Positions 2,236-41,146 of a DNA stretch of 64,000 nt are shown here, piece after piece. The stretch spans positions 17,517 to 81,516 of the forward strand of contig JAOTON010001691.1 in the NCBI GenBank assembly GCA_034440635.1, in the 5' to 3' direction. The notes below the pieces were generated by a model, which made no database searches, was not told the DNA's origin, and was given only the letters and a program-made list of their open reading frames with translations. This DNA is from Lepas anatifera (Eukaryota > Arthropoda > Thecostraca > Lepadidae). The position numbers and the translations under genes were made by a program. The first letter of the stretch is position 1. Every line of letters starts with the position of its first letter.

Positions 2236-3930
2236 CCCGCGTTTTCATCAGGTCGGTGCCCGCCTCCGCTCCCCGGATAGTCATCAGGTCGGTGTCCGCC
2301 TCCCCGGATAGTCATCAGGTCGGTGCCCGCCTCCGCTCCCCGGATAGTCATCAGGTCGGTGTCCGCCCCCGCTCCCCGGATAGTCATCAGGTCGGTGCCT
2401 GCCTCCGCTCCCCCGATAGTCATCAGGTCGGTGTCCGCCTCCCCGGATAGTCATCAGGTCGGTGCCCGCCTCCGCTCCCCGGATAGTCATCAGGTCGGTG
2501 CCCCTCTCCGCTCCCCGGATAGTCTCAGGTCGGTGTCCGCCTCCGCTCCCCGGATAGTCATCAGGTCGGTGTCCGCCTCCGCTCCCCGGATAGTCATCAG
2601 GTCGGTGTCCGCCTCCGCTCCCCGGATAGTCATCAGGTCGGTGTCCGCCTCCGCTCCCCGGATAGTCATCAGGTCGGTGTCCGCCTCCCCGGATTGTCAT
2701 CAGGTCGGTGTCCGCCTCCGCTCCCCGGATAGTCATCAGGTCGGTGTCCGCCCCCCGGATAGTCATCAGGTCGGTGTCCGCCTCCGCTCCCCGGATAGTC
2801 ATCAGGTCGGTGTCCGCCTCCGCTCCCCGGATAGTCATCAGGTCGGTGTCCGCCTCCGCTCCCCGGATAGTCATCAGGTCGGTGTCCGCCTCCGCTCCCC
2901 GGATAGTCATCAGGTCGGTGTCCGCCTCCCGGATTGTCATCAGGTCGGTGTCCGCCTCCGCTCCCCGGATAGTCATCAGGTCGGTGTCCGCCTCCGCTCC
3001 CCGGATAGTCATCAGGTCGGTGTCCGCCTCCCCGGATTACCATCAGGTCGGTGTCCGCCTCCGCTCCCCGGATTGTCATCAGGTCGGTGTCCGCCTCCGC
3101 TCCCCGGATAGTCATCAGGTCGGTGTCCGCCTCCGCTCCCCGGATTGTCATCAGGTCGGTGTCCGCCTCCGCTCCCCGGATAGTCATCAGGTCGGTGTCC
3201 GCCTCCGCTCCCCGGATAGTCATCAGGTCGGTGTCCGCCTCCGCTCCCCGGATTGTCATCAGGTCGGTGTCCGCCTCCGCTCCCCGGATTGTCATCAGGT
3301 CGGTGTCCGCCTCCGCTCCCCGGATAGTCATCAGGTCGGTGTCCGCCTCCGCTCCCCGGATAGTCATCAGGTCGGTGTCCGCCTCCGCTCCCCGAATAGT
3401 CATCAGGTCGGTGTCCGCCTCCGCTCCCCGGATAGTCATCAGGTCGGTGTCCGCCTCCGCTCCCCGAATAGTCATCAGGTCGGTGTCCGCCTCCGCTCCC
3501 CGGATTGTCATCAGGTCAGTGTCCGCCTCCGCTCCCCGGATAGTCATCAGGTCGATGTCCGCCTCCCCGGATTGCCACCAGGTCGGTGTCCGCCTCCGCT
3601 CTCCGGATTGTCATCAGGTCGGTGTCCGCCTCCGCTCCCCGGATTGTCATCAGGTCGGTGTCCGCCTCCGCTCCCCGGATAGTCATCAGGTCGGTGTCCG
3701 CCTCCGCTCCCCGGATAGTCATCAGGTCGGTGTCCGCCTCCGCTCCCCGAATAGTCATCAGGTCGGTGCCCGCCTCCGCTCCCCGGATAGTCATCAGGTC
3801 GGTGCCCGCCTCCGCTCCCCGGATAGTCATCAGGTCGGTGTCCGCCTCCCCGGATAGCCACCGGGTTGGTGTCCGCCTCCCCTCCCCAATTGTCACCGGG
3901 TTTGTGTCCGCCTCCCCCTCCGGAGCAGAA
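2236..3930. repeat. 36-bp minisatellite, about 45-50 units
   Basis: The dominant 36-bp unit contains CATCAGGTCGGTGTCCGCC followed by a CCGCTCCCCGGATAGT-type segment. Shorter units lack one CCGCTC block. Variants (GATTGT for GATAGT, CCCGAATAGT) are scattered, and degenerate units mark both ends. Long open frames on both strands are a by-product of a stop-free unit whose length is a multiple of three. Confidence 0.95.
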
Positions 3931-8099: not shown

Positions 8100-10191
<2,092 letters not shown>

Positions 10192-10688: not shown

Positions 10689-10765
10689 TCACTCAAAGCA
10701 GTCGTCGTAGACGACGACGTTTCGCTTGTCCTTGATGTGAAGTCCCTTCTGCGAGTGGCTGGCCG
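10689..10765 (-). CDS. Nelf-E: NELF-E, last coding exon
   Basis: This exon encodes the conserved NELF-E tail after the RRM: SHSQKG, then KDKR, then a tyrosine with acidic residues (VVYDD), ending CFE and TGA at 10691-10689. The acceptor is CGTTTCAG before CGGCC, at 10765. The phase is right: the preceding exon ends with ATC G, so the junction codon is GCG (Ala) and the protein reads STIAASHSQKG, the arrangement seen in arthropod NELF-E. No clear polyadenylation signal was found downstream. Confidence 0.9.
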
Positions 10766-10796: not shown

Positions 10797-11514
10797 TAGT
10801 CTCACACGGGCCTCCACACCGTCACAACACGGGCCTCCACACCGTCACAACACGGGCCTCCACACCGTCACAACACGGCCTCCACACCGTCACAACACGG
10901 GCCTCCACACCGTCACAACACGGGCCTCCACACCGTCACAACACGGGCCTCCACACCGTCACAACACGGCCTCCACACCGTCACAACACGGCCTCCACAC
11001 CGTCACAACACGGGCCTCCACACCGTCACAACACGGCCTCCACACCGTCAAAACACGGCCTCCACACCGTCACAACACGGGCCTCCACACCGTCACAACA
11101 CGGCCTCCACACCGTCACAACACGGGCCTCCACACCGTCACAACACGGGCCTCCACACCGTCACAACACGGCCTCCACACCGTCACAACACGGGCCTCCA
11201 CACCGTCACAACACGGCCTCCACACCGTCACAGCACGGCCTCCACACCGTCACAACACGGGCCTCCACACCGTCACAACACGGCCTCCACACCGTCAAAA
11301 CACGGCCTCCACACCGTCACAACACGGGCCTCCACACCGTAACAACACGGCCTCCACACCGTCACAACACGGGCCTCCACACCGTCACAACACGGGCCTC
11401 CACACCGTCACAACACGGGCCTCCACACCGTCACAACACGGGCCTCCACACCGTCACAACACGGCCTCCACACCGTCACAACACGGGCCTCCACACCGTC
11501 ACAACACGGGCCGC
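10797..11514. repeat. 22/23-bp minisatellite in NELF-E intron 5
   Basis: About 32 head-to-tail units of GGCCTCCACACCGTCACAACAC with or without one extra G. Changes such as GTCAAAACAC and GTCACAGCAC are rare. The array begins only about 30 bp upstream of the acceptor of the last NELF-E exon, so the branch point and pyrimidine tract must lie in or next to it. Unlike the arrays in intron 3, the unit does not contain a copy of the splice site. Confidence 0.95.
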
Positions 11515-11847: not shown

Positions 11848-12014
11848 CGATGGTGCTCCAGGCACTGGAGGTGGAGGCGTCGTTGATGGGCTCCACCTTG
11901 GGCTGGCGGCGGCTGTAGGACACCTGCAGCTCCACACCCTCCACCTTAGTGTCGTTGAGCGCGCCGATCGCCTTTTCTGCATTCTCCACCTTATCGAAGG
12001 TGAGGAAGCCGCAG
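11848..12014 (-). CDS. Nelf-E: NELF-E, exon with RRM RNP1 motif
   Basis: The second half of the RRM is encoded here. It opens CGFLTFDKV (the RNP1 position), continues KAIGALNDTKVEGVELQVSY, and then QPKVEPINDAS and SAWSTI, which follow the RRM in arthropod NELF-E. The acceptor is GCTGCGGCAG before CTGCGG. The donor is ACCATCG before GTGAGG at 11847. The exon is 167 nt: one base completes the AG-C serine codon from the exon before, and one base remains for the next. The RNP1 region aligns well with the family, with a phenylalanine at each expected aromatic position. Confidence 0.92.
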
Positions 12015-13206: not shown

Positions 13207-13400
13207 CTCTTCTCGATCTCCATGCTGATGTTGACGATGGTGCCGAAGCTGGCGAAGTGGCGGCGCAGCAGCGCCTCCGTCACGCCGAAGCCCCGCACGT
13301 ACACCGTGTGACCCTGGCGCGGCCGGTCAGACGGGCCCGTCTCACGCGCGCCCAGCCGCTCCTCCTTGTCCCGAGCCGACACGAAACTGTCGTACAGCGA
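13207..13400 (-). CDS. Nelf-E: NELF-E, exon with SLYDSF segment and RRM start
   Basis: It starts SLYDSFVSARD, matching the SLYESFVSSSD region of vertebrate NELF-E, then a charged linker, then the start of the RRM with HTVYVRGF (RNP2) and LLRRHFASFGTIVNISMEIEK. The exon is 194 nt; its donor is AAGAG before GTGAGA at 13206, leaving AG to be completed by C in the next exon. The acceptor is CGCTGCGGCAG before TCGCTG at 13400. This acceptor and the first 15 exon bases are also the core of the tandem array just upstream, whose nearest 63-bp units are in frame with the exon. The role is RNA contact by the NELF complex at promoter-proximally paused RNA polymerase II. Confidence 0.93.
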
Positions 13401-13697
13401 CTGCCGCAGCGTAACAGGGTCAGACGAAAGGACAACACAGCAGCCGACACTGTCGTACAGCGACTGCCGCAGCGCAACAGCGTCAGACGAAAGGACAAAA
13501 CCGCAGCCGGCACTGTTGTACAGCGACTGCCGCAGCGTAGCAGCGTCAGACCAGGGGACAACACAGCAGCCGGCACTGTCGTACAACGACTGCCGCAGCG
13601 CAGACAGCGTCAGACGAGAGGACAACACAGCAGCCGACACTGTCGTACAGCGACTGCCGCAGCGTAACAGCGTCAGACGAAAGGACAACACAGCAGC
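13401..13697 (-). repeat. Splice-acceptor minisatellite of NELF-E intron 3, block 1
   Basis: Four and a half 63-64 bp units lie directly upstream of exon 4. On the minus strand each ends CGCTGCGGCAG then TCGCTGTACGACAGT, a copy of the real acceptor plus the first 15 exon bases, before diverging to GTCGGCTGCTGTGTTGTCC. Copied acceptor positions are 13463, 13526, 13589 and 13653. The first three are exactly 63, 126 and 189 nt from the true one and remain open in the exon 4 frame. An I-clade element interrupts the block at 13697. Confidence 0.93.
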
Positions 13698-14120
13698 TGA
13701 TTGATTATTGGGTTTTAGGGGCGCGCCAACCTGCGAGGTCATATAGCGCCCATAACACTTCTCTGCAGTCAAAGCTTATAATTTTGTCTGTCTTTAGGGG
13801 AAAGTAAAGTCTCGTCTAAAGCGAAATAATATTTACATTACAGAGTGATTCTTTCACATCGTAGTTATGATTCTCACTGCACGGATACATGATCACAGAT
13901 TCAAACAGGTTTGCCGCGCCGGCAGGCGCCCAGCACGGGGCGCCGGGGCATCACTTCCGGCGCCCACCCCGCACCAACGGACCCAGGGGCCAGGGGGCGC
14001 GGGGGCAATCTAGACGCCGGACCTAAGCCCGACGTCTAACGGAGGCCCTCCCCGTGGCTCCGAGACTTGAAAGGCCCCGGAGCGAAAGGGAGGACCCGCC
14101 AAGTCGGCGCCAGGCGCCTA

Positions 14121-17100
14121 TCAGCGCGGTTGTCTACCACAACAGACGCTTTTAACCAGGACAAATATTATCGTAAAGTCAATGTCTCTAAGATAGGACA
14201 GCACCCGTTCAACCATACTGGAGTCACGGCCGATCAATTCTAAAAGTGTGGACTCCTGCCGGTGCACGCCAAAATGCAAAGACCTGTGTCTAGCATATTC
14301 CGGGCACGAGACTAGCACGTGTCGGACCGACAGGGGCGCCGCACATCGCTGACATTGTGGTCGAGGTTCGCCGCATAGCAGGTATCGGTGAGTGGCCAGC
14401 GTGTGGCCAGTCCGCAATCGACACAACGCCACTTCCTCACGGTGGTTAGGCCGCAGCGAGGATGGCTGGCCACTCACCGATCTCAGGTTTGATAACTTTC
14501 AACTTGCTATTCATTATATCATTCCATTGTTCTTGCCATACACTGCGAAGGTGAGTACATATATATATGGGTACAAATATCTAGCGGGGATTCGTCGCGC
14601 ACGCCTGCAGGGCCTACGGGAAGCACGTCGAGCCGCTGCGTCTGCCACTTCATTCAATTGTATTCCAACATGACTTGGGACCCAGCAGAGTGTTACATAC
14701 TTTCCCAGTCTGGCGAGGCGGGTTAAGCGCAGGACAATGTTTAAAACAAGTCCATCACTTGGGTTGAAACCACTCACAGCTTGAATGCTGCTAAGGCTAT
14801 AGGTGAAAATAACGTATTTCGTGGCATCACTAACTTCGATAAAGCATAGAGCTTTATCCAAGGTGGTGAGTTCAGAGGTGAAAACCCATGCAAAAGATGA
14901 AAGTGAGAAATTTCTTGTTACTGTATCCGTAACAAAAGCGCATCCCACTCCAACTTCAGTTTTTGATCCGTCAGTGTAGAACGACACATGATCTGCATAC
15001 TGTGCGATGTGTTCGAGCGCCAATTGCTTAAATTCAGTAGGGATAGTATCGGATTTGGTTTTCCCTGCGAGAGTCATGTCGGTTTTTGGGCAGATAAGTT
15101 CCCAAGGAGGGATGTCTGAAAGCTCGCTATGAGTCACAACACACGGCTTGATACCACTTTCGGCCGAGAAACGTTGGACGCGTACGCCCAGTGGGATTCC
15201 TCTTTGCACGTTCACAAACAGTCGTAGCATGTTCCGCGAGAAAATTGCGTTATATGTTGGGTGTGACGGAGACTGAGCCAGCTTATAGGCGTAACGCTGC
15301 CCGAGCAGGCACCGTCGCAATGCGAGAGGTGGTTCATTTGCTTCCACCAACAAGCTGGAGCACGGTGTTGTCCTAAACGCACCTGTAGCCACTAGGAGTG
15401 CACTATGGTGAATCGTATCTAAACAGCGTTTAGCTGATTCCGACGGAGAATCGTATACAAAACAGGCGTAATCCATCTTGGAACGAACAAGAGACCGATA
15501 GAGAATGAAAAGTGTCTTCCTGTCCGCTCCGTACGATAGACGAGATGCACATTTCAAGGCATTCAAAGATTTAATACACTTGTCACGTATATTCCTAATG
15601 TGTGCGTTGTATGTCAGCCGTTTATCAAACGTTACTCCGAGAAACTTTGCTGCCGGTTGGAAAGTGGTAGTTTTACCGCGCAATGATACCATAGGTTCCG
15701 GACAGGTCTGCGCCTGCGACAGAAATGAACACCAGCGGTTTTCTCGGTCGAAAAATATAATCCATTTTTACTACTCCAGCGTTCCAGATGCTTCACGGCC
15801 AGCTGGAGTTGACGTGATAGTGAAGATGTTGTTGAAGATGTTGTCCATATTGCAATATCGTCCACAAATATGGAACTCTGTATGGATGATGGGAGGGATG
15901 TTGTGACGTCATTTATGGCTAAAGCGAAGAGACAAATACTTGAAACGCTCCCCTGTGGGATGCCCTCTTCCTGATAAAATGCATTGGAGTACATGCCACC
16001 GATCCTGACGCGGAAAGTCCTATCAGTCAGGAAGTTCTTCATAAAAAAGACCCATCTGGCCACGAATACCACACTGATACAATTTTAACAGGATGCCATG
16101 TCGCCACGCTGTGTCATAGGCGGCAATGGCGTCAAAGAACACGGCTCCAAGGTGTCGCCCCTCTCTGAACGCACATCGCACTGATGTATCCAGAGACACC
16201 AAGTGATCCACCGTGCTCCGGCCTTTGCGGAAACCGCACTGGTTGTTACTGAGAATACATTGGCTTTCGAGATACCACGCGAATCGCACATTCACCATTT
16301 TTTCGAAAAAGTTTGCACATGCAAGAAGTCAGCGATATTGGCCTAAAGTGTAAAGGGTCTGAGCCAGACTTGCCCGGTTTCAGAATAGGAATCACTATGG
16401 CTTCCTGCCACGCCGGAGGGAAATCGCCAGACTCCCACATCACATTAAATGTGGCAAGCAGTGCCCTCAGCGCATATTGCGACACGGCTTTCAACATATC
16501 ATTATGTATAAGATCTGGTCCCTCAGCTACATAACGAAGGGCACGGATCGCTGCCACCAGCTCGTGCATCGAAAACGGCTGGTTATAAGATGGCGTGTCA
16601 GTAGTGGTAAAATCTATAGGTTTCTGTTCGGCTAGGTTTTTATGTCTCATAAATGTATTATCGTCTCTCAAGGAGCTACAGCGCTGTGCAATCGCATTGC
16701 CTATACAGTTAGCCACTTTAGCTGGGATGAATATTGTTCTGCCAGAAACGTTTGGTGTTGGAAGATATGTGGGGACTGACGTGCCGTCAATGCGGCGAAT
16801 TTGGGCAAATACCTGGGACAATGGTGTACATCTATTCAGTCTGCTTACATACTCCCTCCAAGACTTCCTTTTAGCTTGTTTTATGGTGCGTCTGCAGGCG
16901 GCTCTGGCCTGTCTATAGATATTTAAGGTGTATAGTGTGGAGTTTCTTTAAACTGTCGGTAGGCACGTCGTCGTTTACGAATAGCGTTCCGGCAATCCTC
17001 GCTCCACCACGGAACCGGTGGCCGCTGCGGATTTTTTTATGTTCGGGGGATACTGGCATGGGCTGCGTCTCGGAGTATGGTCGAAAACTCGTCCACTGTG

Positions 17101-17952
17101 AGTGGCTCTCCTGTCGAAATATTCTCTACGTAATCATCTACGAGAGAATTAAACAGGGACATATCTGCGTTTTTAAACTTCCACCGTTGCGGTCTCGTGC
17201 CTAAAACAGGTGTACCGTCACAGGTCACAAAAACAGGGAAGTGGTCACTTCCCATTGGGTCACTGTTTACTGACCAGCTAAATGTAGCAGCCAGCTGAGG
17301 GCTGCAAATGCTCAGGTCTAAAGCTGATTCGCCACCAGATGGAGTGGTAAAATGTGTTGGTTCTCCTGTGTTTAAGACACAAATTCTCATCTCGAATAAA
17401 ACGCTCGAGGTGGCGGCCACGTTTGTTTGTACCTTCACACCCCCATGCAGTATGGTGCGCGTGAAAATCCCCCATGAGAAGGATTGGGGGTGGTAGTTCG
17501 GACACGAGCATATTTAATTCTGGCGAGGGCAGGTCTACCCCAGGGGGCAGGTAGACGGAACATAACGTAATCTGCCGTCGATTGAAGTATATGCGCGCTG
17601 CGATAGCTTGTAGCCGTGTCTGGAGTAGGATCTGTTTTGCTGGTAGATTGTGATTTACTGCTAAAAGAACGCCGCCGTAGGCGACTGGGTTGCGTTGCCT
17701 GTCTTTTCGGTACGTGCGGTAACCTCTGAGGGAAAATTTAGTCCCTTGTGACAATTTTGTTTCCTGCAGGCATATTGCTGCTGGTCCATGGTCTCTTATA
17801 ATAACTCGCAGATCCTCAGCACTTGTCCGAACTCCACGGCAGTTCCACTGTATAAAGGTGTTCATGAGGAAGGTGGTAGGGAGGGGGTGCAGCTTATGTC
17901 CACCCTGACGGCCATAACCCATTGAGCTGTGTCGAAGCAAGCAGGGATGCAT
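14121..17952 (-). pseudogene. ORF2 of I-clade element copy 1: endonuclease, RT, RNase H (broken)
   Basis: Read from high to low coordinates. The apurinic-type endonuclease at 17850-17220 has WNCRG, the catalytic LQETKL, GDFHAHHTAW and SDHFPV. The RT at 16820-15630 has FDAIAAYDTAWRHG, GIPQGS and FVDDIAIW (catalytic D-D). A thumb or connection region follows, then RNase H at about 15000-14600 with YTDGSK, a degenerate SELTTLDKAL, a changed TYSLSS in place of the expected TDSLSS, and PSHVGI. The last part (14477-14121) carries the C-terminal zinc-binding segment CGEPRPQC..C. At least five frame changes break it. The lost aspartate in RNase H also shows decay. Confidence 0.9.
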
Positions 17953-18170
17953 AGAGCGGAGTGGTGGGTCGCCACCGCAAAACCACCGTAGAAAACAATT
18001 TTTGGGGTCTGAAAGTGTCGTAAACTAAAAATGTTTCCAGGAGGCAGCATTGTCTCCTGCACATATGGGACATAGGCATTATGTTCAAGTGGAGTACTCT
18101 GCAGGTTCAAAAGGTTAGTCCGAAGGTCTCCGCAATTCAACGGTGAGATATAGTTCATGTGTAAAAAGGG
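17883..18170 (-). pseudogene. Second, divergent endonuclease half-domain upstream of ORF2
   Basis: Between the ORF1 end and the ORF2 start sits about 290 bp that is absent from copy 2 at 34270-34330. Its minus-strand frame aligns with the first half of the ORF2 endonuclease. MNYISPLNCGDLRT matches MNTFIQWNCRGVRT, VQETMLPPGNIFSLRHF matches LQETKLSQGTKFSLRGY, YGGFAVA matches YGGVLLA, and CTPSLPP matches CSVYLPP. The two are clearly diverged, so this is not a recent tandem duplication. It could have been captured from a related element by template switching. Confidence 0.6.
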
Positions 18171-18399
18171 AAACAGGCTTTGGCTGCAGGCCAATCACTA
18201 TTTCCAGTGAGGGCCTGGAGGCCCATGGTGCTTTTTTTGGGTATAGGGAGAGGCCCACTTTGCCTGCCTTCCCGGGTGAAAGAGCTCCTTTCGCTGCCGC
18301 TTGAGCAGGAGCAAGCGCGGCTAACAGAGGTAGCATCACGGTCCTGAGGCGAGGCGGCAGGGCGCTTGGTGCTCCCACGTGCCGGCAGCGGACCCTCAA

Positions 18400-19493
18400 A
18401 ACACAGCAGCCGACACTGTCACACAACGACTGCCGCAGCGCAGACAGCGTCAGACAAGGGGACAACACAGCAGCCGACACTGTCGCACAGCGACTGCCGC
18501 AGCGCAGACAGTGTCAGACGAGGAGACAACACAGCAGCCGACACTGTCGCACAGCGACTGCCGCAGCGCAGACAGCGTCAGACGAGGGGATAACACAGCA
18601 GCCGACACTGTCGCACAGCGACTGCCGCAGCGTAACAGCGTCAGACGAGGGGACAACACAGCAGCCGACACTGTCGCACAGCGACTGCCGCAGCGTAACA
18701 GCGTCAGACGAGGGGACAACACAGCAGCCGACACTGTCGCACAGCGACTGCCGCAGCGCAGACAGTGTCAGACGAGGGGACAACACAGCAGCCGACACTG
18801 TCGCACAGCGACTGCCGCAGCGCGGACAGCGTCAGACGAGGGGACAACACAGCAGCCGACACTGTCGCACAGCGACTGCCGCAGCGCGGACAGCGTCAGA
18901 CGAGGGGACAACACAGCAGCCGACACTGTCGCACAGCGACTGCCGCAGCGCAGACAGTGTCAGACGAGGGGACAACACAGCAGCCGACACTGTCGCACAG
19001 CGACTGCCGCAGCGCAGACAGTGTCAGACGAGGGGACAACACAGCAGCCGACACTGTCGCACAGCGACTGCCGCAGCGCAGACAGTGTCAGACGAGGGGA
19101 CAACACAGCAACCGACACTGTCGCACAGCGACTGCCGCAGCGCAGACAGTGTCAGACGAGGGGACAACACAGCAGCCGACACTGTCGCACAGCGACTGCC
19201 GCAGCGCAGACAGTGTCAGACGAGGGGACAACACAGCAACCGACACTGTCGCACAGCGACTGCCGCAGCGCAGACAGTGTCAGACGAGGGGACAACACAG
19301 CAGCCGACACTGTCGCACAGCGACTGCCGCAGCGCGGACAGCGTCAGACGAGGGGACAACACAGCAGCCGACACTGTCGCACAGCGACTGCCGCAGCGCA
19401 GACAGTGTCAGACGAGGGGACAACACAGCAGCCGACACTGTCGCACAGCGACTGCCGCAGCGTAACAGCGTCAGACAAAAGAACAACACAGCA
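18400..19493 (-). repeat. Splice-acceptor minisatellite, block 2
   Basis: About 17 units of 63-64 bp continue the array cut off at 13697. They all keep the minus-strand acceptor core GCTGCGGCAG then TCGCTGTGCGACAGT. Units here are more uniform than in block 1 and have TGC where exon 4 has TAC, which points to local homogenisation. Many units have GCGCAGACAGTG and a few GCGTAACAGCG, and these two variants give the 64- and 63-bp lengths. Confidence 0.93.
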
Positions 19494-22350
19494 GGGGCAT
19501 TCCAGGACAAAACGACCAAAAATAGTTCAATTTGACACCACCATGTCTAGAAAAAATCTGAAACTTTGTCTCCGGAGTAGTTTTGGGTCAGAAACACGCC
19601 TGTGAGAATCTTAGCCCCCTCCGATCAACGGTGACCGAGTTATAGCCCGAGGCATTTTCGGGAGGTCACCTTATAGACTCATTTTTGATGCTTCATAACT
19701 CAAAAACGCATAGCCTGATTAACAAGTTTTGCATATCATTGAACTCGTCTTGAACTATACTTTATTTTGAAAAAGAAAATTTCAAAATTTGAAAATATTT
19801 GACTTTTAATTTGTTTGACCTTTTCCTTTTTACCTAGCTTGACCTTTCCCAGTTGAAATTGCCATTTTAGACCCCTTAAAAAATTTTTGAATAATAAAAT
19901 ATCTTTCGATAGGAAAAATAAAAAAATGCGTTCTTGCTATAAGTTCCAAATATTTAGCACCTAAGGTGGGTATGTAGACGGTTTTTGACCACTGCAGTAG
20001 TACAGCCTTATGTTTAACGCCGCAAACATAGTGATTGTTTTTGTAATCGGTTGCTGGCAATCATATTGCTTTGTCTTTACAAAATTTTCATCGTGCAAGT
20101 GTCAGAATTTATGACAATTAACACGCACCCACCCGAGGGGGTGGGCAACCGGCCTCCTCAGGTCTCTACAGGTAGTAAAAAAACACCTTAGCGCAGCGCC
20201 ACCGTACGCCATCTATCTTTAACACAACATATTACAACTTCTGGAAAAATAATTTAGGTCAACTGGGAGGTGGTAGGTACCGTAAATACTGAAGGCACGC
20301 TGGCAACTGACTGGTGAGGGTGTGACCTGAGGTAGACGGTCGTCGTTATGCCTTAAGGGACTTTCAAATTTGGTTCATTGATTAACACTTCATCGTGGGA
20401 GTTGCTCGTTTGGGTGGTGGGGTCGGGGTCTTCGTAAAAAGTCCCGTGATGACTCTAGTGAGACACCTACTCCTAAAACTGAACTGGAAACAACTTGGAC
20501 AATATTTATAAAAATAAAATTGCAGCCATTAAAAGTGATAGAAAGGGATCCATTGTTTCGAGGGAGACGAGGGCAAATGAACTTATTAATAAATAACCTT
20601 TCAGCCTTAAACGAAAATTTACAAAGATGTCGCGAGTTTATCCATAATTGAAACAAATATAACTTATCCTATGAGCACCACTAACTCAATTACATCGTCC
20701 CCCGAGATGGAAAAAATAGTATCGATACAAGGTGACCCAGTGCAGCACAGCATACGTTTGAGAGGATTCATGCTATGTAAACAAACGTGTCTGAAAGAAT
20801 TTAATTCCCAAAAAGTAATTTGAATCTGCTCATATATGCGAAAAAGTGTCCTGAAATTGTAACGCATTCGACTTGGTCACTTGAACAGATTGCCTCATGA
20901 TATTTTTACAAGGTGATCATTTCATAGCTGACACGGATCCCAGAATCCCAGATGAATAATTACACTGTGCACTGGGAGTGATGCCGCTAAACAGCCAGTT
21001 TTAATCACTACCGAATATGCTACACACAATCGTTTGGTCGTGTCATCTTTGAGGTTGCTCGAGGTCACAGTATTTCTTACAGGAACAAAGTGGAAACCTA
21101 AATTTTGTGGCATAATAGGTGACAGAGGAGAGCCGTTGAAAGAAATGTTCAGCGCCATTGGAACACTCTTGTTGAGCCCAAACGGATCATGTATCTTATA
21201 ATATTGCCTAGGCAAATGCCAAAATTAGCCTGCTTTGACCTAGAGCCAGGCTTAGGTCTGTATGGTAAAAAGAATATTAATTAAACTGCAGTGGCAAGCC
21301 AGACACGACAACGTAAAAACAAAACCTGCATCGCAATTCTCGAAAATTCTCAATTTTCTCAAGTATCAAAATTTACCAATTGCCCCATGCATTTCTAATG
21401 GAAAGACCATGACCTTGACCCTGCTCCCGGTTATCGACATAGAAATCCTGCTATGAAAAATTATCTTGCTGGGCGACCTTACTATGTAATGTGAATCAAA
21501 CCACGATAGGCTAAATTTGATATTATTGATGCACTTCCCAAAGTTTTTTCGAGGTTAGGTCTCTTGACCTGGTTTGGCGGTTTGACCTGGTATGACCCAG
21601 ACCTAAAATTTTCCCAGAAGTTGTAATATGTTGTGTTAGAGATAGATGGCGTAAGGTGGCGCTGCGCTAAGGTGTTTTTTACTACCTGTAGAGACCTGAG
21701 GAGGCCGGTTGCCCACCCCCTCGGGTGGGCGCGTGTTGTCATAAATTCTGACACTTGCACAATGAAAATTTCGTAAAGACAAAGCAATATGATTGCCAGC
21801 AACCGATTACAAAAACAATCACTATGTTTGCGGCGTTAAACATAAGGCTGTACTACTGCAGTGGTAAAAAACCGTCTACATACCTACCTTAGGTGCTAAA
21901 TATTTGGAACTTATAGCAAGAACGCATTTTTTTATTTTTCCTATCGAAAGATAGTTTATTATTCAAAATTTTTGAGGTGTCTAAAATGGCAATTTCGACT
22001 GGGAAAAGGTCAAGCTAGGTCAAAAAAGAAAAGGTCAAACAAATTAAAAGTAAAAATTTTCAAATTTTGAAATTTTCTTTTTTCAAAATAAAGTATAGAT
22101 CAAGACGAGTTCAATGATATACAAAACTTGTTAATCAGGCTATGCGTTTTTGAGTTATGAAGCATCAAAGATGAGTCTACTGGGTGACCTCCCGAAAATG
22201 CCTCGGGCTATAACTCGGTCACCGTTGATCGGAGGGGGCTAAGATTCTCACAGGCGTGTTTCTGGCCCAAACCTACCCCGGAGACAAAGTTTCAGATTTT
22301 TTCTAGATATGGTGGTGTCAAGCCTTGGTCGATCTGTCCTGGAATGCCCC
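19494..22350. mobile_element. Long-terminal-inverted-repeat element within the acceptor array
   Basis: The arms at 19494-20258 and 21598-22350 are inverted copies of each other with scattered mismatches and small indels. They start GGGGCATTCCAGGACA and end with the complement. AGCA flanks both sides (19490-19493, 22351-22354), consistent with a 4-bp duplication but ambiguous in a repetitive target. The 1.3-kb middle has no transposase frame and holds a truncated SINE. Acceptor-array units resume immediately on both sides. It is a non-autonomous DNA element; its superfamily is unknown. Confidence 0.88.
20290..20503 (+). mobile_element. tRNA-derived SINE, copy B, 5'-truncated
   Basis: Starts within the SINE body (GGCAACTGACTGGTGAG), lacks the tRNA-like head, and ends with the shared CAACTTGGACAA tail. 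It sits in the centre of the long-inverted-repeat element and is more diverged than the copies at 12576, 51003 and 58303. Confidence 0.75.
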
Positions 22351-22849
22351 AGCAGCCAACACTGTCGCACAGCGACTGCCGCAGCGCGGCCAGCGTCAGA
22401 CGAGGGGACAACACAGCAACCGACACTGTCGTACAGCGACTGCCGCAGCGCGGACAGCGTCAGACGAGGGGACAACACAGCAACCGACACTGTCGCACAG
22501 CGACTGCCGCAGCGCAGACAGCGTCAGACGAGGGGACAACACAGCAACCGACAATGTCGTACAGCGACTGCCGCAGCGTAGACAGCGTCAGACGAGGGGA
22601 CAACACAGCAGCCGACACTGTCGTACAGCGACTGCCGCGGCGTAACAGCGTCAGACGAGGGGACAACATAGCAGCCCACACTGTCGTAAGGCGACTGCCG
22701 CAGCGCAGACAGCGTCAGACGAGGGGACAACACAGCAACCGACACTGTCGTACAGCGACTGCCGCAGCGCAGACAGCGTCAGACGAGGGGACAACACAGC
22801 AGCCGACACTGTCCTAAGGCGACTGCCGCAGCGCAGACACCGTGAGACC
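22351..22849 (-). repeat. Splice-acceptor minisatellite, block 3
   Basis: About eight 63-64 bp units continue block 2 across the inverted-repeat element. Both TAC and TGC versions of the exon-derived part occur, along with decayed units (CCTAAGGCGA, CTGCCGCGGCG) towards 22850, as expected at the edge of an array. Confidence 0.92.
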
Positions 22850-23039
22850 TATATACAATGTGGCGCTCACATCATGCGACACACAAGCTTGTCTGGGGCA
22901 GTAACCGTCGTCGCCCCCCCCAGCACGTCACTGCTCCAAGTGGGACCTCACATCGAAAATAATCTACAATACCAGCGTTTGGAACAGAGTGGATTAGTTG
23001 ATGTGATATCTATGTACACGGCCGCCCCGGTGCGAACGG

Positions 23040-23659
23040 AACGGCGGGGGCCGGCTCACCTTCCTCTGCACGGAACGGCGGGCGCCGGCTCACCTTCCTC
23101 TGGACGGAACAGCGGGGGCCGGCTCACCTTCCTCTGGACGGGGCGGCGGGGGCCGGCTCACCTTCCTCTGGACGGAACGGCGGGCGCCGGCTCACCTTCC
23201 TCTGGACGGAACGGCATACGGGCTCACCTCCCTCTGGACGGAACGGCGGGCGCCGGCTCACCTTCCTCTGGACGGAACGGCATACGGGCTCACCTTCCTC
23301 TGGACGGAACGGCGGGCGCCGGCTCACCTTCCTCTGGACGGAACGGCATACGGGCTCACCTCCCTCTGGACGGAACGGCGGGCGCCGGCTCACCTTCCTC
23401 TGGACGGAACGGCATACGGGCTCACCTTCCTCTGGACGGAACGGCGGGCGCCGGCTCACCTTCCTCTGGACGGAACGGCATACGGGCTCACCTTCCTCTG
23501 GACGGAACGGCGGGCGCCGGCTCACCTTCCTCTGGACGGAACGGCATACGGGCTCACCTTCCTCTGGACGGAACGGCGGGCGCCGGCTCACCTTCCTCTG
23601 GACGGAACGGCGGGCGCCGGCTCACCTTCCTCTGGACGGAACGGCGGGCGCCGGCTCAC
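23040..23659 (-). repeat. Splice-donor minisatellite at the start of NELF-E intron 3
   Basis: About 18 units follow the true donor, giving about 19 donors in total. On the minus strand each unit contains CGTCCAGAGGAAG then GTGAGC, a copy of the last 13 bases of exon 3 and its 5' splice site. Unit lengths are 34 (GTGAGCCGG type) and 32 (GTGAGCCCG type), largely alternating to make 66-bp pairs; two units read GAGGGAG at the splice junction. Copies nearest the exon lie at 23626, 23592, 23558 and 23526. Confidence 0.94.
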
Positions 23660-23797
23660 CTTCCTCTGGACGGGGCGGAAGGGCTGCGGCCGCTCGGAGG
23701 GCGCCGGGGAGCCCGCCTCCTCCTCCGGGTGGGTGGCAGAGAAGGGCTGGTAGCCGCTCAGCGCCCGGTCCGACCCGGACAACTTCCGCTCCAGACC
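23660..23797 (-). CDS. Nelf-E: NELF-E, exon 3
   Basis: Encodes 46 residues in phase 0: GLERKLSGSDRALSGYQPFS, an acidic stretch with EEE, then a proline-rich end RPQPFRPVQRK. In vertebrate NELF-E the matching stretch runs from LEGKLKD through FQPFQRS to RRPQRK, directly before SLYESF, and here RPVQRK joins SLYDSF in the next exon. The acceptor is CCGGCGGCAG before GGTCTG at 23797. The donor is GTCCAGAGGAAG before GTGAGCC at 23660. The whole donor context has been amplified into the array that follows, so this exon has many possible 3' ends. Confidence 0.92.
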
Positions 23798-23814
23798 CTG
23801 CCGCCGGTCGCACG

Positions 23815-25816
23815 GCGGTTACCACACCAACCCGGCACCTCACGTTACCACACCGACCCGGCATCTCACGGCAGTTACCACACCAACCCGGAACCTCACA
23901 GCAGTTACCACACCGACCCGGCGCCTCACAGCAGTTACAACACCGACCCGGCTCCTCACGGCAGTTACCACACCAACCCGGCACCTCACGGCAGTTACCA
24001 CACCAACCCGGCACCTCACGCCAGTTACCACACCAACCCAGCACCTCACAGCAGTTACCACACCGACCCAGAACTTCACAGCAGTTACCACACCGACCCG
24101 GCACCTCACGTTACCACACCGACCCGGCACCTCACGTTATCACACCGACCCGGCACCTCACGTTACCACACCGACCCGGCACCTCACGTTACCACACCGA
24201 CCCGGCACCTCACGACAGTTACACCAACCCGACACCTCACGGCAGTTACCACACCAACCCAGCACCTCACAGCAGTTACCACACCAACCCGATAGCTCAC
24301 GGCAGTTACCACACCGACCCGGCACCTCACGTTACCACACCAACCCGGCACCTCACGGCAGTTACCACACCAACCCGGTACCTCACGGGAGTTACCACAA
24401 CAACCCAGAACCTCTCAGCAGTTACCACACCAACCCGGAACTCACAGCAGTTACCACACCGACCCGGAACCTCACAGCAGTTACCACACTGACCCGGTAC
24501 CTCACGGCAGTTACCACACCAACCCGACACCTCACGTTACCACACCAACCCGACACCTCACGGCAGTTACCACACCATCCCGGAACCTCACAGCAGTTAC
24601 CACACCAACCCGACACCTCACGTTACCACACCGACCTGGCACCTCACGGCAGTTACCACACCAACCCAGCACCTCACGGCAGTTACCACACTAACCCGGC
24701 ACCTCACGTTACCACACCAACCCGGAACCTCACAGCAGTTACCACACCAACCCGGCATTCCACGTTAGCACACCAACCCGGAACCTCACAGCAGTTACCA
24801 CACCAACCCGGCATTCCACGTTACCACACCAACCCGGAACCTCACAGCAGTTACCACACCAACCCGGCACCTCACAGCAGTTACGACACCAACCCGGCAC
24901 CTCACGTTACCACACCAACCCGGCACCTCACGTTACCACACCAACCCGGTACCTCACGGCAGTTACCACACCGACCCGGCACCTCACAGCAGTTGCCACA
25001 CCGACCCGGCACCTCACGGCAGTTACCACACCAACCCGGCACCTCACAGCAGTTACCACACCAACCCGGCACCTCACAGCAGTTATCACACCCACCCGAT
25101 AGCTCACGGCAGTTACCACACCAACCCGGCACCTCACAGCAGTTATCACACCCACCCGATAGCTCACGGCAGTTACCACACCAACCCGACACCTCACGTT
25201 ACCACACCAACCCGGAACCTCACAGCAGTTACCACACCGACCCGGCACCTCACGGCAGTTACCACACCAACCCAGCACCTCACAGCAGTTACCACACCAA
25301 CCCGGAACCTCACAGCAGTTACCACACCAACCCGACACCTCACGTTACCACACCAACCCGGAATCTCACAGCAGTTACCACACCGACCCGGCACCTTACG
25401 GCAGTTACCACACTGACCCGGCATCTCACGACAGTTACCACACCAACCCGACACCTCACGTTACCACACCAACCCGGCACCTCACAGCAGTTACCACACC
25501 AACCCGGCACCTCACAGCAGTTACCACACCGACCCGGCACCTCACTTTACCACACCAACCCGGCACCTCACAGCAGTTACCACACCGACCCGGCACCTCA
25601 CGTTACCACACCAACCCGGCACCTCACAGCAGTTACCACACTGACCCGGCACCTCACGGCAGTTACCACACCGACCCGGCACCTCACAGCAGTTATCACA
25701 CCAACCCGGAACCTCACGTTACCACACCAACCCGAAAACTCATATTACCACACCAACCCGAAAACTCATATTACCACACCAACCAGACACCCCACGTTAC
25801 CACACCAACCCGACAC
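23815..25816. repeat. 31-bp minisatellite in NELF-E intron 2
   Basis: About 2 kb made from units of CAGTTACCACACCAACCCGGCACCTCA type, with a short form lacking CAGTTACC replaced by CGTTACC. The array starts within about 20 bp of the acceptor of exon 3. Unlike the arrays in intron 3, the unit does not hold exon sequence. Confidence 0.94.
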
Positions 25817-26153
25817 CTGGGCTTCGAAAGAAGTTCATGTAAAGAGTAGGCAATCAGTGAAGTCAATCAAGGCAAAGAGTAGGAAAGGTTTGCTTGCACT
25901 GTTCGCACACAATGCGCATGTGAGCTTTCCAAATGAAAAGTCCCACCCCTTTATGAAACAAGTAGGGACGATTTGCTAAGCTTCCAAATGCCTCACAAAT
26001 ACAGGACATGATTTACGCCACACACATGTTTTCTCAGTATCCCTAATTGGCACGTTAAAAACAGACTACCTAGTGCTGACTCCCACAGACAGACCAGCGA
26101 GCTGGCCGGAAGACTCAGCGGAGCAGACCGGGCTCCGGCAGGCGTCACGCTAC
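25817..26153. other. NELF-E intron 2, unique part
   Basis: No repeat or coding signal seen between the minisatellite and the donor of the upstream exon (CCAAG before GTAGCG). Confidence 0.5.
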
Positions 26154-26336
26154 CTTGGACCGTTTGAAGGTCGTCTTGTCCTTGAGCTCTCCAGGACGCT
26201 GAATGGAGCGTATGGCGCCGGAGCGGATCAGCTTCTTGGCATATTCCTTGGCATCTTTGGCCTCCGAGGGCCGTTTGGCCGCCGGGACCGGCTCCTGCTC
26301 CTGGCGAGGAGCCTTCAGCGCCTGCAGCGCCCTCTT
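26154..26336 (-). CDS. Nelf-E: NELF-E, exon 2 (most 5' exon found)
   Basis: Encodes 61 residues in phase 0. It starts KRALQALK, the end of the N-terminal lysine/leucine-rich helix, and contains KDAKEYAKKLIRSGAIRSI, which matches TEQAKQLVKSGAISAI of vertebrate NELF-E, then TTFKRSK. The acceptor is GGACTTGGGCAG before AAGAGG at 26336; the donor is TCCAAG before GTAGCG. NELF-E binds nascent RNA through its RRM and pauses RNA polymerase II as part of the NELF complex in the nucleus. The start codon exon is not visible in 26337-28258; it may lie beyond the hAT at 28259-37650 or outside the window. Confidence 0.9.
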
Positions 26337-30575: not shown

Positions 30576-33500
30576 TCAGCCCGGGTCAAATACAATCACG
30601 AAATCGGCTGCTCTGAGATAATCTAGCACTTTCTCAATCATGTCCGAGTCCGGGCCAATCAGATGAGACAGTGTGAGAAGACGTGAACCGAAATGTGAAA
30701 GCCTGAGATTATCATACTCCGGACAAGACACCAGGACGTGCCGCACCGACAAGGGGGTCGCGCATCGCCGACAATAAGGCCTGGGCTCGCCACATAGCAG
30801 ATATCGGTGAGTGGCCAGACAATGGCCAGTTCGCAAACGGCAGAGAGCCACCTCCTCACGGCGATGGGAGCGCATAGAGGACAGCCACTCACCAATGTTG
30901 GGTTTTATTACCCTGAGCTTGTTATTTGTCTGCTCCTGCCATTCCCGTTGCCATACATTGCGAAGGTGGACAGATATATGTGGGAAAAGATCTCGAGCAG
31001 GAATCGACTGTCTTTTTCTACAGGGTCTCTGAGCAGCTCGCCGGGCTGCAGCATCAGCCGCTTCATTCAGTCGGATACCGACATGACTCGGCACCCAACA
31101 GAGGGTTATATCCTTACCCTGTCCGGCGAGTCGAGCTAGGTGGAGAGCAATCTTTAACACGAGCACGTCGCTTGGATTAAAAGCACTCAAAGCCTGGACA
31201 CTACTAAGACTGTCGGTGAAAATTACATTTCTGGTGTCGTCACTGGCTTCTATGAAACAGAGAGCTTTGTCTAATGCAGTAAGTTCCGAGGTAAAGACAG
31301 ATGAAAAAGGTGACAGTGAGAAATTTCTAGTCACTGAGTCAGTCACAAAAGCACATCCCACGCCGAACTCAGTTTTTGATCCATCGGTGAAAAACTGGAC
31401 ATAATCTGCATATTTTGCGATGTGTTCGAGGGCTAAATATTTAAGTTCCAGAGGAGCCGTGTCCGATTTGGTCCTGCCAGCAAGAGTCGTGTCAGCCTTT
31501 GGTGGTATTAGTTCCCATGGTGGGATATCCGAGAGCTCGCTGCGACTTATGATACGGCGTTGGATACCACATTCGCCCGAGAGGCGATGCACACGCACAC
31601 CTAGGGGAAGTCCCCTTTCGCTGTTCACAAACAAACGCAGCATGTCATGCGAGAAAACGGCGTTGTACGTGGGATGGGGCGGAGACTGGGCCAGTTTGTA
31701 CGCATAGCGCTGTCCCAGCATGCGTCGTCTCATTGAGAGGGGTGGTTCGTTAGCCTCCACCAGCAGGCTGGCGCGTGGTGTGGTCCTAAATGCTCCTGTA
31801 GCTACTCTGAGTGCGCTATGATGGATCGTATCCAGACACCGTTTGGCTGATTTCGATGCAGAGTCGTAGACGAAACAGGCGTAGTCCATCTTGGAACGGA
31901 CAAGGGACCGATATAAAGTGAGAAGTGTTTTCCTGTCAGCTCCGTACGATAGACGAGATGCACATTTTAGGACATTTAAGGATTTGAAACACTTGTCACG
32001 GACATTCCTAATGTGTGTGCTGTAAGTTAGCCGTTTATCAAATGTCACCCCGAGAAATTTTGCCGTCGGTTGAAAAGGGATAGTTTTGCCACGCAACGAT
32101 ACCGTTGGTTCCGGACAGGCCCTGCGCCTGCGACAAAAATGGACACCCGCGGTTTTTTCAGTCGAAAAGTATAGCCCGTTTTTTTCTACTCCAGCGTTCC
32201 AGACAATTAACGGCCAGCTGGAGCTGACGGTAAAGTGCCGGCGTTGTTGAAGCCTTTGCCCATACTGCGATGTCGTCCACGAAAATGGATGCCTGAATGG
32301 AAGGTGGGAGTGAATGTGTGACGTCATTTATGGCCAGAGCGAAGAGGCAGATACTAGAGACGCTCCCCTGCGGAATGCCTTCTTCTTGATAAAAGGTGTT
32401 TGAGTATGTACCACCTACTCTGACACGGAACGTCCTATCAGTCAAAAATTTTTCATAAAGAACCCCATCTGACCTCTGATACCACACTTATGCAACTTTA
32501 AAAGGATACCATGTCGCCACGCTGTATCATAAGCGGCAATGGCGTCAAAGAAGACGGCTCCCAGGTGACGCCTCTCTTTAAATGCAATTCGCACTGAGGT
32601 GTCAAGTGATACCAAGTGGTCCACCGTACTGCGGCCTCTACGAAACCCACACTGGTTGTTATTGATGATGCCCCGGCTTTCCAAATACCAAACGAGTCTT
32701 ACATTCACAATTTTTTCGAACAACTTACACATGCACGACGTAAGCGAGATCGGCCTAAAGTGCAAAGGGTCCAATCCAGATTTACCAGGTTTAAGGATTG
32801 GTATCACTATAGCCTCCCGCCACGCCGGTATAAATTCGCCGGACTCCCACATCATATTGAATGAGGCCGGCAGCACCCTAAGTGCGCTCTGCGATAGTGC
32901 TTTAAACATATCATTGTGAATTAAATCCGGTCCCTCGGCCACTGGGTGGAGCCCACGAATGGCTGCCGCTAGCTCATGCAAGGTGAAGGGCTTATTGTAT
33001 GACAGTGTGCTGGTGGTTCCAAAATGTATACTTTTCTGTTCAGCCAGGGCTTTATATCGCATAAATGAGACATCCTCCCTAACTGAACTACAGCGCTGTG
33101 CAATCGCATTTCCTATACAGTCGGCTACTTCTGATGGATTGAATATATTCCTACCACCAATCTGCAAAGTTGGTAGTGGTGTGGAGACCGACCTGCCTTC
33201 GATACGGCGAATTTGAGCAAACACTTGGGACAATGGCGTAAATCGATTCAGTCTACCTACGTATTCTCTCCAACATTTTCTCTTTGCTTGTTTTATTGTG
33301 CGCCTGCAGGCGGCTCGAGATTTCCGATACATATTTAAGTTTTGCTGAGTGGAATTTCTTTTAAACTGTCTGTAAGCGCGCCGCCGTTCTCGGACAGCGT
33401 CACGACATTCCATGCTCCACCACGGTACCGGTGGTCGCCGAGGGTTTTTTGATGTTCGCGGTATAGAAGCATAAGCAGCGTCTCGGAGGATAGCTGTAAA

Positions 33501-34268: not shown

Positions 34269-34294
34269 AAACGTTTTAATGATGGGGGTGGAAG

Positions 34295-38754: not shown

Positions 38755-40590
38755 AGCCAGGCCAGCTGGCGGCGGCAGACACTGATGGGGGTACCCAGCT
38801 CCACACTGAGCCAGCTGGCGGCGGCAGACACTGATGGGGGTACCCAGCTCCACACTGAGCCAGCTGGCGGCGGCAGACACTGATGGGGGTACCCAGCTCC
38901 ACACTGAGCCAACTGGCGGCGGCAGACTCCTGATAGGGGTACCCAGCTCCACACTGAGCCAGCTGGCGGCGGCAGACACTGATGGGGGTACCCAGCTCCA
39001 CACTGAGCCAGCTGGCGGCGGCAGACACTGATGGGGGTACCCAGCTCCACACTGATCCAGCTGGCGGCGGCAGACACTGATGGGGGTACCCAGCTCCACA
39101 CTGAGCCAGCGGCAGACTCTGATGGGGGTACCCAGCTCCACACTGAGCCAGCTGGCGGCGGCAGACTCTGATAGGGGTACCCAGCTCCACACTGATCCAG
39201 CTGGCGGCGGCAGACACTGATGGGGGTACCCAGCTCCACACTGATCCAGCGGCAGACTCTGATGGGGGTACCCAGCTCCACACTGATCCAGCTGGCGGCG
39301 GCAGACACTGATGGGGGTACCCAGCTCCACACTGATCCAGCTGGCGGCGGCAGACACTGATGGGGGTACCCAGCTCCACACTGAGCCAGCGGCAGACTCT
39401 GATGGGGGTACCCAGCTCCACACTGATCCAGCTGGCGGCGGCAGACACTGATGGGGGTACCCAGCTCCACACTGAGCCAGCGGCAGACTCTGATGGGGGG
39501 TACCCAGCTCCACACTGAGCCAGCGGCAGACTCTGATGGGGGTACCCAGCTCCACACTGAGCCAGCTGGCGGCGGCAGACTCTGATAGGGGTACCCAGCC
39601 CCACACTGAGCCAGCAGCAGACTCTGATGGGGGTACCCAGCTCCACACTGAGCCAACTGGCGGCGGCAGACACTGATGGGGGTACCCAGCTCCACACTGA
39701 GCCAGCGGCAGACTCTGATGGGGGTACCCAGCTCCACACTGAGCCAGCGGCAGACTCTGATGGGGGTACCCAGCTCCACACTGAGCCAGCTGGCGGCGGC
39801 AGACTCTGATAGGGGTACCCAGCCCCACACTGAGCCAGCAGCAGACTCTGATGGGGGTACCCAGCTCCACACTGAGCCAACTGGCGGCGGCAGACACTGA
39901 TGGGGGTACCCAGCTCCACACTGAGCCAGCGGCAGACTCTGATGGGGGTACCCAGCTCCACACTGAGCCAGCGGCAGACTCTGATAGGGGTACCCAGCCC
40001 CACACTGAGCCAGCGGCAGACTCTGATGGGGGTACCCAGCCCCACACTGAGCCAGCGGCAGACTCTGATGGGGGTACCTAGCTCCACACTGAGCCAGCGG
40101 CAGACACTGATGGGGGTACCCAGCTCCACACTGAGCCAACTGGCGGCGGCAGACACTGATAGGGGTACCCAGCTCCACACTGAGCCAGCGGCAGACACTG
40201 ATGGGGGTACCCAGCTCCACACTGAGCCAGCGGCAGACTCTGATGGGGGTACCCAGCTCCACACTGAGCCAGCGGCAGATTCTGATGGGGGTACCCAGCT
40301 CCAAACTGAGCCAGCAGCAGACTCTGATGGGGGTACCCAGCTCCACACTGATCCAGCTGGCGGCGGCAGACTCTGATGGGGGTACCCAGCTCCACACTGA
40401 GCCAGCGGCAGACTCTGATGGGGGTACCCAGCTCCACACTGAGCCAGCGGCAGACTCTGATGGGGGTACCTAGCTCCACACTGAGCCAGCGGCAGACTCT
40501 GATGGGGGTACCTATCTCCACACTGAGCCAGCGGCAGACTCTGATGGGGGTACCCAGCTTCACAGTGAGCCAGCTGGCGGCGGCAGACAC
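38755..40590. repeat. Minisatellite with 49-bp and 42-bp units
   Basis: Long units read CAGCTGGCGGCGGCAGAC then CTGATGGGGGTACCCAGC and CTCCACACTGAGC. Short units lack TGGCGGC (7 bp). Long and short forms are interspersed, with short forms commoner towards 40500 and a third class marked ACTGATCC. All three minus-strand frames stay open over hundreds of codons because the units contain no stop; the longest is 640 codons. These show no start context or domain and I regard them as by-products. Confidence 0.95.
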
Positions 40591-41146
40591 TGATGGGACC
40601 CGGCTCCATACTGATCGGTAGGTACGTACCTATTAAACATATCAAAATCATCCACTTTCCAGTTGTGAAAATATGTGCTGGTTCATACTCTTGCCCAGTT
40701 TCAATTCAATTATAAGACCTACTACAAAATCAGCCTGGCATACCCGAGCCGATTATCTTCTGTATGCACGGTACAATTTTCTCCCGGAAATGGATCACAG
40801 CCAGGGAACATTTATTCTCACCTTCTTTCTCAGCTTGGAGTACTTGTTTTGTAGGACTATTTCTTCTTCAGTTAAATTTGTTGGAAAATGTAGATAAACC
40901 ATGACTTCACGAGTTTAATCTGCAACAAAGGGTTGAAAGTTACAGGTCCCGAACGCAGTCTACAGGTCCATTCTAGTCAGTCCCAACTTAAAAACCCCGG
41001 TCTGCGACCTGGGCTAACGCCCCACCGGCGCATGTGAGCCGCATGCCAATGTGCTGAAAGCAAACCATATTTCCTTCGCAATGTATCTCTTCATAAGCGT
41101 GTCATAAGTCAGTGGTATCATTATTTTCTCTGAAATAACTAATAAA
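40591..41146. other. No recognisable gene
   Basis: Starts with a small palindromic TAGGTACGTACCTA at 40619. Otherwise nothing was recognised. Confidence 0.45.

Follow-up and report, generated by a model that had tools for sequence, protein, structure and literature searches.

How does a single intron come to have both of its splice sites repeated many times over in tandem, and what does such a structure mean for the gene that carries it? The question is raised by the gene for negative elongation factor E (NELF-E) of the barnacle Lepas anatifera, which we studied in a stretch of 64,000 nucleotides of contig JAOTON010001691.1 (assembly GCA_034440635.1, positions 17,517 to 81,516; hereafter the window, whose own numbering is used throughout). 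The window is part of the contig that we call C1587, and genome searches were made over the 1.04-Gb assembly. NELF-E lies on the minus strand with six coding exons running from 40902 to 10689, and its intron 3 occupies 13401..23659, with the donor GTGAGC at 23659 and the CAG of the acceptor ending at 13401, as judged by homology. We report that a short segment spanning each junction of this intron is repeated as a minisatellite, and we consider it probable that both arrays belong to the mirage type described in amphioxus, growing in noncoding DNA regardless of the splice sites that they contain.

Both junctions of NELF-E intron 3 lie within minisatellites

At the 3' end of the intron we counted 30 acceptor junctions on the minus strand, in line with the first-pass annotation of this DNA, which had put the amplified acceptor at about 30 copies. 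The junctions fall into three blocks: an exon-proximal block (13382..13697) with five junctions between 13400 and 13653, including the real exon 4 acceptor; a middle block (18400..19493) with 17 junctions between 18429 and 19451; and an exon-distal block (22351..22848) with eight junctions between 22375 and 22822. Complete units measure 63 or 64 bp; on the minus strand each runs through ...CTGACRCTGTCTGCGCTGCGGCAG to the junction and continues with TCGCTGTACGACAGT, the sequence of exon 4 from base 1 to base 15, or with a near variant. CAG is kept in all 30 acceptors, and CGCTGCGGCAG is exact in 29 of the 30 units. The annotation had described a repeat of 63–64 bp that takes in 15 bases from the start of exon 4. 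An exact copy of these 15 bases occurs in 6 of 30 units, and 28 of 30 units match at 13 or more of them. The size and the presence of exon bases stood; the exon part is longer than stated, as by eye it resumes past a 5-base gap with GTCGGCT, reaching a total of 22 bases. The motif CTGAC lies about 20 nt 5' of CAG in 71 of 78 acceptor units when the window and the second haplotype described below are taken together, and the motif fits a branch-point consensus. An identical partner is often present for interior units of the acceptor array, on either haplotype, and edge units are divergent. Per-site diversity of the acceptor units is zero over GGCAGT and at many other sites too, and we draw nothing from it.

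Directly 3' of exon 3, at the opposite end of the intron, 19 GGTGAG donor sites follow one another at a spacing of 34 or 32 bp from 23659 to 23059 (array 23036..23673, minus strand), the first being the exon 3 donor itself, and GGTGAG is retained in every one of the 19 units. Each unit carries CCAGAGGAAG followed across the junction by GTGAGCC, or a near variant of this sequence; its exon side is CCGTCCAGAGGAAG in most units, with the exon's longer CCGCCCCGTCCAGAGGAAG in one, and by eye exon 3 contributes about 14–19 nt. The earlier proposal that both ends of the intron are minisatellites built on their own splice sites is borne out, and the two are independent in sequence, similarity between donor and acceptor units being no higher than between shuffled units. 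Genome searches that ignore very common words, in which the queries were the donor array and 300 bases from the acceptor block, matched only the two NELF-E contigs.

The positions of the junctions rest on homology. Exons were placed by tblastn of exon protein pieces together with a read-out of the junctions; the joined pieces align with human NELF-E, and their best matches are cirripede orthologues (Amphibalanus 76%, Pollicipes 75%). The end of exon 3 (...RPVQRK) and the start of exon 4 (SLYDSFVSARDKEE) agree with qrkslyesfvsssd of human NELF-E and with the cirripede orthologues. None of the seven NELF-E orthologue proteins that we aligned has a unit-sized insertion at the exon 3/4 junction. 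Orthologues P0001-P0003 differ at this junction by about two residues in length (GN-KTLYDSF, GNKIKTLYDSF, GARPKTLYDSF), as if the boundary had shifted. All exons are on the minus strand: exon 1 (40822..40902) starts as in the cirripede orthologues, exons 2 (26154..26336), 3 (23660..23797) and 5 (11848..12014) are placed in keeping with the orthologue alignment, exon 4 (13207..13400), at the start of the RRM region, with human NELF-E and cirripede homology, and exon 6 (10689..10765) contains the stop codon. For a second gene of this genome, a CLK2-like kinase, the closest proteins were those of Pollicipes (84%) and Amphibalanus (80%) and one further protein (84%); taken with NELF-E, these matches point to a barnacle-lineage animal other than Pollicipes and Amphibalanus.

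Two transposons interrupt the acceptor array

The acceptor array is spread over a 9.4-kb interval, of which only 1,908 bp are array; the remainder consists of two transposons of 4,702 bp and 2,857 bp, each flanked by a target-site duplication (TSD), and we therefore rejected the possibility that the whole interval is array. The longer element (13698..18399, minus strand) resembles a non-long-terminal-repeat (non-LTR) retrotransposon, with a Pfam endonuclease domain, an RNase H match slightly under the Pfam cut-off and the 11-bp TSD AACACAGCAGC, one copy of which lies at 13687-13697 in the exon-proximal block. The shorter element (19494..22350, strand not assigned) has terminal inverted repeats (TIRs) of about 760 bp and the 4-bp TSD AGCA. 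When one TSD copy is retained per element, the array rejoins in register. Because each TSD was made from array sequence and the units rejoin in phase, the acceptor array formed a single run until the two elements inserted.

The same TIR family is represented in intron 1 of the second haplotype by a haplotype-specific insertion with TSD AGAT (L013 1227-4470), and insertions specific to each haplotype suggest recent activity of this family. A second element of non-LTR type, with matches to endonuclease, reverse transcriptase and RNase H, is located in NELF-E intron 1 at 30576-34307.

The arrays differ in length between two haplotypes

A second contig, C1428, contains the same locus: its non-array flanks are 97–99% identical to those of the window among the matches listed, and exons 2–4 are protein-identical, so that it probably represents the other allele. 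Its donor array has 64 units, 62 of them intact with GT and two broken by an inserted base, and its acceptor array has 49 units, 48 with CAG and one with an inserted base (GGCGAG), against 19 donor and 30 acceptor units in the window. The non-LTR-like element also sits in this acceptor array, from which the TIR element is missing. The intron 3 arrays are a real, length-variable feature, and the differences between the haplotypes look like ordinary minisatellite turnover. We rejected the idea that selection protects the splice motif inside the array, as the two broken donor units of C1428 share the same inserted base (GGATGAG).

The consequences for splicing were followed by pairing donors with acceptors, counting only those acceptors that lie before the first transposon. 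An open frame results from 5 of 95 pairs in the window and from 3 of 2046 pairs in the second haplotype, the normal pair being included in each count. Of the 18 alternative donors in the window, not one leaves the frame open when used alone. Use of inner sites would mostly disrupt the reading frame. The exon-proximal donor and acceptor are probably the pair that is normally used.

Junction-spanning arrays recur at kinase exons

The frequency of such arrays was estimated in 90 of 139 listed protein-kinase-family exon matches, at 80 loci taken with their flanks and chiefly in score order, the other 49 matches being left out. Self-comparison served to flag arrays, which were then inspected by eye, and copies were counted at a mismatch limit; gene names at these loci are our reading of the translated exons. 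Self-comparison flagged 16 of the 80 loci, and inspection by eye left seven junction-spanning arrays in the 90 exon matches, four at acceptors and three at donors. The acceptor arrays have a 71-bp unit in four copies with AG kept in three (L033), a 46-bp unit at a CK2-alpha-like exon with AG kept in all 23 copies (L058), a 47-bp unit with AG kept in all four copies (L068), and a unit of about 60 bp at a GSK3-like exon with AG kept in six of seven copies (L092). In the donor arrays GT is kept in 7 of 8 copies (L080), 16 of 19 copies (L088) and 19 of 22 copies (L057), the last of these including only about 4–6 exon bases and being the weakest of the seven. No unit of the seven arrays had a match on the opposite strand.

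Nine flagged loci were not counted as spanning: at L017, L028 and L044 the matches lie inside the open reading frame (judged by coordinates alone for L017 and L044), L039 is a CT microsatellite, and the arrays at L062, L064, L081, L083 and L087 are only near the junction or abut it. By eye, the 40-bp array at L083 (CDK16-like) seems to occupy a whole short intron, from the donor to the next acceptor. At L087 (MAP2K-like), pyrimidine-rich units, most of them with CAG, lie upstream of the likely true acceptor and amount to decoy acceptors without clear exon sequence.

Of the 10 splice sites of NELF-E, two fall inside an array. Three further minisatellites of the gene, all on the minus strand, do not span a junction: the 30-bp repeat of intron 2 (23811..25818) abuts the acceptor and stops 13 nt short of exon 3, the 23-bp repeat of intron 5 (10804..11512) stops 38 nt short of exon 6, and the 42-bp repeat of intron 1 (38772..40574) is about 250 nt from the donor. 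The survey suggests, from a small sample, that several percent of exons in this genome carry junction-spanning arrays.

Other repeats of the window include two minisatellites downstream of NELF-E, at 798-1483 (45 bp) and 2245-3915 (36 bp), with 15.2 and 47.6 copies, respectively, in the window and 37.2 and 32.6 copies in the second haplotype, and a GT/GTAT microsatellite of about 1 kb at 8101-9143 with 99% matches according to Tandem Repeats Finder (TRF). A Pfam search over the first 5 kb of the window gave only matches under the curated cut-offs.

Array density is roughly level up to the junction in a small sample

TRF calls (period at least 10, copies at least 2.5) were used to score array coverage at fixed points from the edges of the kinase matches. 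Outside the edge, arrays covered 9 of 179 points at 500 nt and, of 180 points each, 9 at 400 nt, 11 at 300 nt, 12 at 200 nt, 12 at 100 nt, 11 at 40 nt, 9 at 20 nt and 7 at the edge itself; inside the match they covered 4 of 180 at 20 nt and none at 40 nt or 60 nt. Among the 69 matches of less than 560 bases, none of the 11,976 bases in exon interiors lay in an array. In this small sample, array density keeps roughly level as far as the junction and drops to nil about 40 nt into the exon, the pattern predicted if arrays can form at any place and are lost only where they would damage coding sequence.

These frequencies bear on the pairing of two arrays on intron 3. Independent placement would suffice to give the pairing, since an array was judged present at 7 of the 90 exon matches sampled: with arrays at 7 of 180 edges, about 0.15% of introns should have an independently placed array at each end, and with very many introns in the genome such pairs should occur, so that pairing alone is no evidence for a linked mechanism. 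A special cause for the paired arrays was rejected on the grounds of the flat array density.

Origin of the arrays

On the mirage-type reading of the two intron 3 arrays, a small piece of DNA across each splice junction would have been duplicated in tandem, and the tandem would then have been lengthened and shortened via unequal exchange or slippage. As duplication of a whole junction leaves an intact junction at the exon, splicing from the first donor to the last acceptor would continue and selection would not halt growth; it would do so only where the array would extend further into coding sequence. Arrays that arise irrespective of splice sites would be expected to leave some exons with one array and a few introns with arrays at both ends. 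We infer this mutational route.

Several points weigh against this reading or limit it. The kinase survey is small, confined to one gene family and non-random, may have counted allele pairs twice, and uses the edges of domain matches in place of true exon boundaries. TRF coverage at the edge also reached seven cases, which are not quite the seven arrays accepted by eye: TRF includes L083 and lacks L057, and acceptor-side coverage is slightly highest 100–200 nt outside the edge, which leaves room for a mild bias. The donor arrays do not clearly show greater divergence among copies at the edge than in the interior. In addition, the first three alternative acceptors of the window give in-frame, stop-free inserts of 63, 126 and 189 nt, and the first two alternative acceptors of the second haplotype are open as well; the three open 63-bp units beside exon 4 in the window might be tolerated or used.

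The open inserts of the window also speak for a functional role, in which decoy or alternative sites would tune NELF-E output, for example through in-frame units of 21 residues (SLYDSVGCCVVLSSD.VTLRQ) or through decay of part of the transcripts. NELF-E is an RNA-binding elongation factor for which self-regulation is conceivable, and splice elements are retained in nearly all copies of both arrays. Recent homogenisation would yield the same retention, however, and a functional role sits poorly with the two donor units of the second haplotype that carry one and the same inserted base, with a more than threefold difference in donor copy number between the haplotypes, with the comparable arrays in kinase genes and with seven aligned orthologues that have no unit-sized insertion; we regard it as unlikely. 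Far less credible still is seeding of the arrays by an introner-like mobile element bearing splice sites, the least probable of the explanations that we considered. Intron-making mobile elements exist in other lineages, and transposons are present in intron 3, but these interrupt an older array and their TSDs consist of array sequence, the units hold the exon's own bases, and the hallmark of introners, near-identical copies at unrelated loci, was not seen in the genome searches with the acceptor-block and donor-array queries, very common words being skipped. An assembler that expanded or misjoined repeats could also produce long arrays, as tandem arrays are difficult to assemble and one amphioxus mirage was apparently misassembled in a draft genome, to go by the part of the source used here (PMC3087553). 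Against such an artefact, two contigs carry both arrays, at unequal lengths and with variants particular to individual copies, and transposons with their TSDs lie in register inside the acceptor array; the existence of two differing alleles makes assembly error an unlikely source of the arrays, and we hold it to be very improbable.

Relation to known splice-junction repeats

The first-pass annotation knew of no described case of paired donor and acceptor satellites on one intron. The arrays themselves are not without precedent, as tandem repeats that span exon–intron boundaries, 5' as well as 3', have been described in amphioxus under the name of mirages (PMC3087553). The portions of the two papers on which we draw describe tandem duplications of such boundaries in Adh, globin, TnC and PGBD5 genes, which differ in length between haplotypes and seem not to disturb splicing (PMC3087553; PMC3902484). 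A homogenised interior with divergent edge copies is described there for one globin gene (PMC3087553), and somatic instability is reported for the Adh3 mirage; lancelet PGBD5 has two boundary-spanning arrays within one gene, although it is not clear from that text whether they lie on the same intron (PMC3902484).

Judged by these portions, the NELF-E arrays and the amphioxus mirages are alike in several respects. Both have units that span the boundary with exon and intron bases (15–22 nt of exon 4 in the acceptor units of NELF-E), and in both many copies keep AG or GT, in NELF-E 30 of 30 and 19 of 19, respectively, in the window and 48 of 49 and 62 of 64 in the second haplotype. Both kinds can occur at 5' and 3' boundaries and vary in length between haplotypes, and in this genome as in amphioxus several genes are affected. 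The homogenised interior and divergent edges of amphioxus are seen in the acceptor arrays of both NELF-E haplotypes and not clearly in the donor arrays. They differ in that NELF-E belongs to a crustacean and has 19–64 donor and 30–49 acceptor units as compared to 2–7 in the amphioxus arrays described in these portions, that its arrays stand at both ends of the same intron with transposons nested in one of them, and that normal splicing is suggested in amphioxus by reverse transcription PCR (RT-PCR) and Adh3 data, whereas the NELF-E arrays are known from DNA alone.

Two other systems invite comparison. A minisatellite of a human gene, according to a title of 1995, reportedly supplies several splice donors, with a 12-bp unit and alternative donors in use; as far as can be told from that source, it resembles NELF-E in supplying several donors and differs in being confined to donors and to a single gene. 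In the Rogers model, introns are gained via tandem duplication of AGGT-bearing segments (PMC3087553), and a case in potato RdRp has been described (PMC4974935), again to judge from parts of these texts. The likeness to NELF-E is that sequence bearing a splice site is duplicated in tandem within a gene. In the model and in the potato gene the duplication is said to create a new intron. The intron of NELF-E, by contrast, exists beforehand, and only its ends multiply.

A published case stated to involve both ends of one intron was not found in the open-licence literature, a scope within which the founding amphioxus Adh paper does not fall; the same literature yielded no splice-junction array in any crustacean and nothing that we judged relevant on barnacle tandem repeats. 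The present arrays extend the known mirages to another phylum and contribute their copy numbers, a pair on a single intron and a first, rough estimate of frequency.

Significance

With these arrays an arthropod joins the carriers of a type of repeat that we found described, in the source portions used here, only in lancelets and, for donors only, in a human gene. Their interest comes chiefly from their apparent recurrence in the genome and from the ready test of splice-site choice that they offer. The choice of the spliceosome among competing sites has mostly been tested with engineered constructs. NELF-E provides a natural test, with 19–64 near-identical donor units set against 30–49 acceptor units in counts that differ between the haplotypes of one animal, and could reveal whether exon proximity alone decides, and with how much leakage, and whether new exons or introns originate from such arrays. 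With considerable reserve, and as a conjecture that we would not be surprised to see fail, we suggest that splice-junction minisatellites may be a genome-wide architecture of this cirripede lineage, in which several percent of exons carry from a few to tens of near-identical sites; this would be possible only through a strict exon-proximal rule of the spliceosome, or else the inner copies would continually supply repeat-bearing isoforms and new introns.

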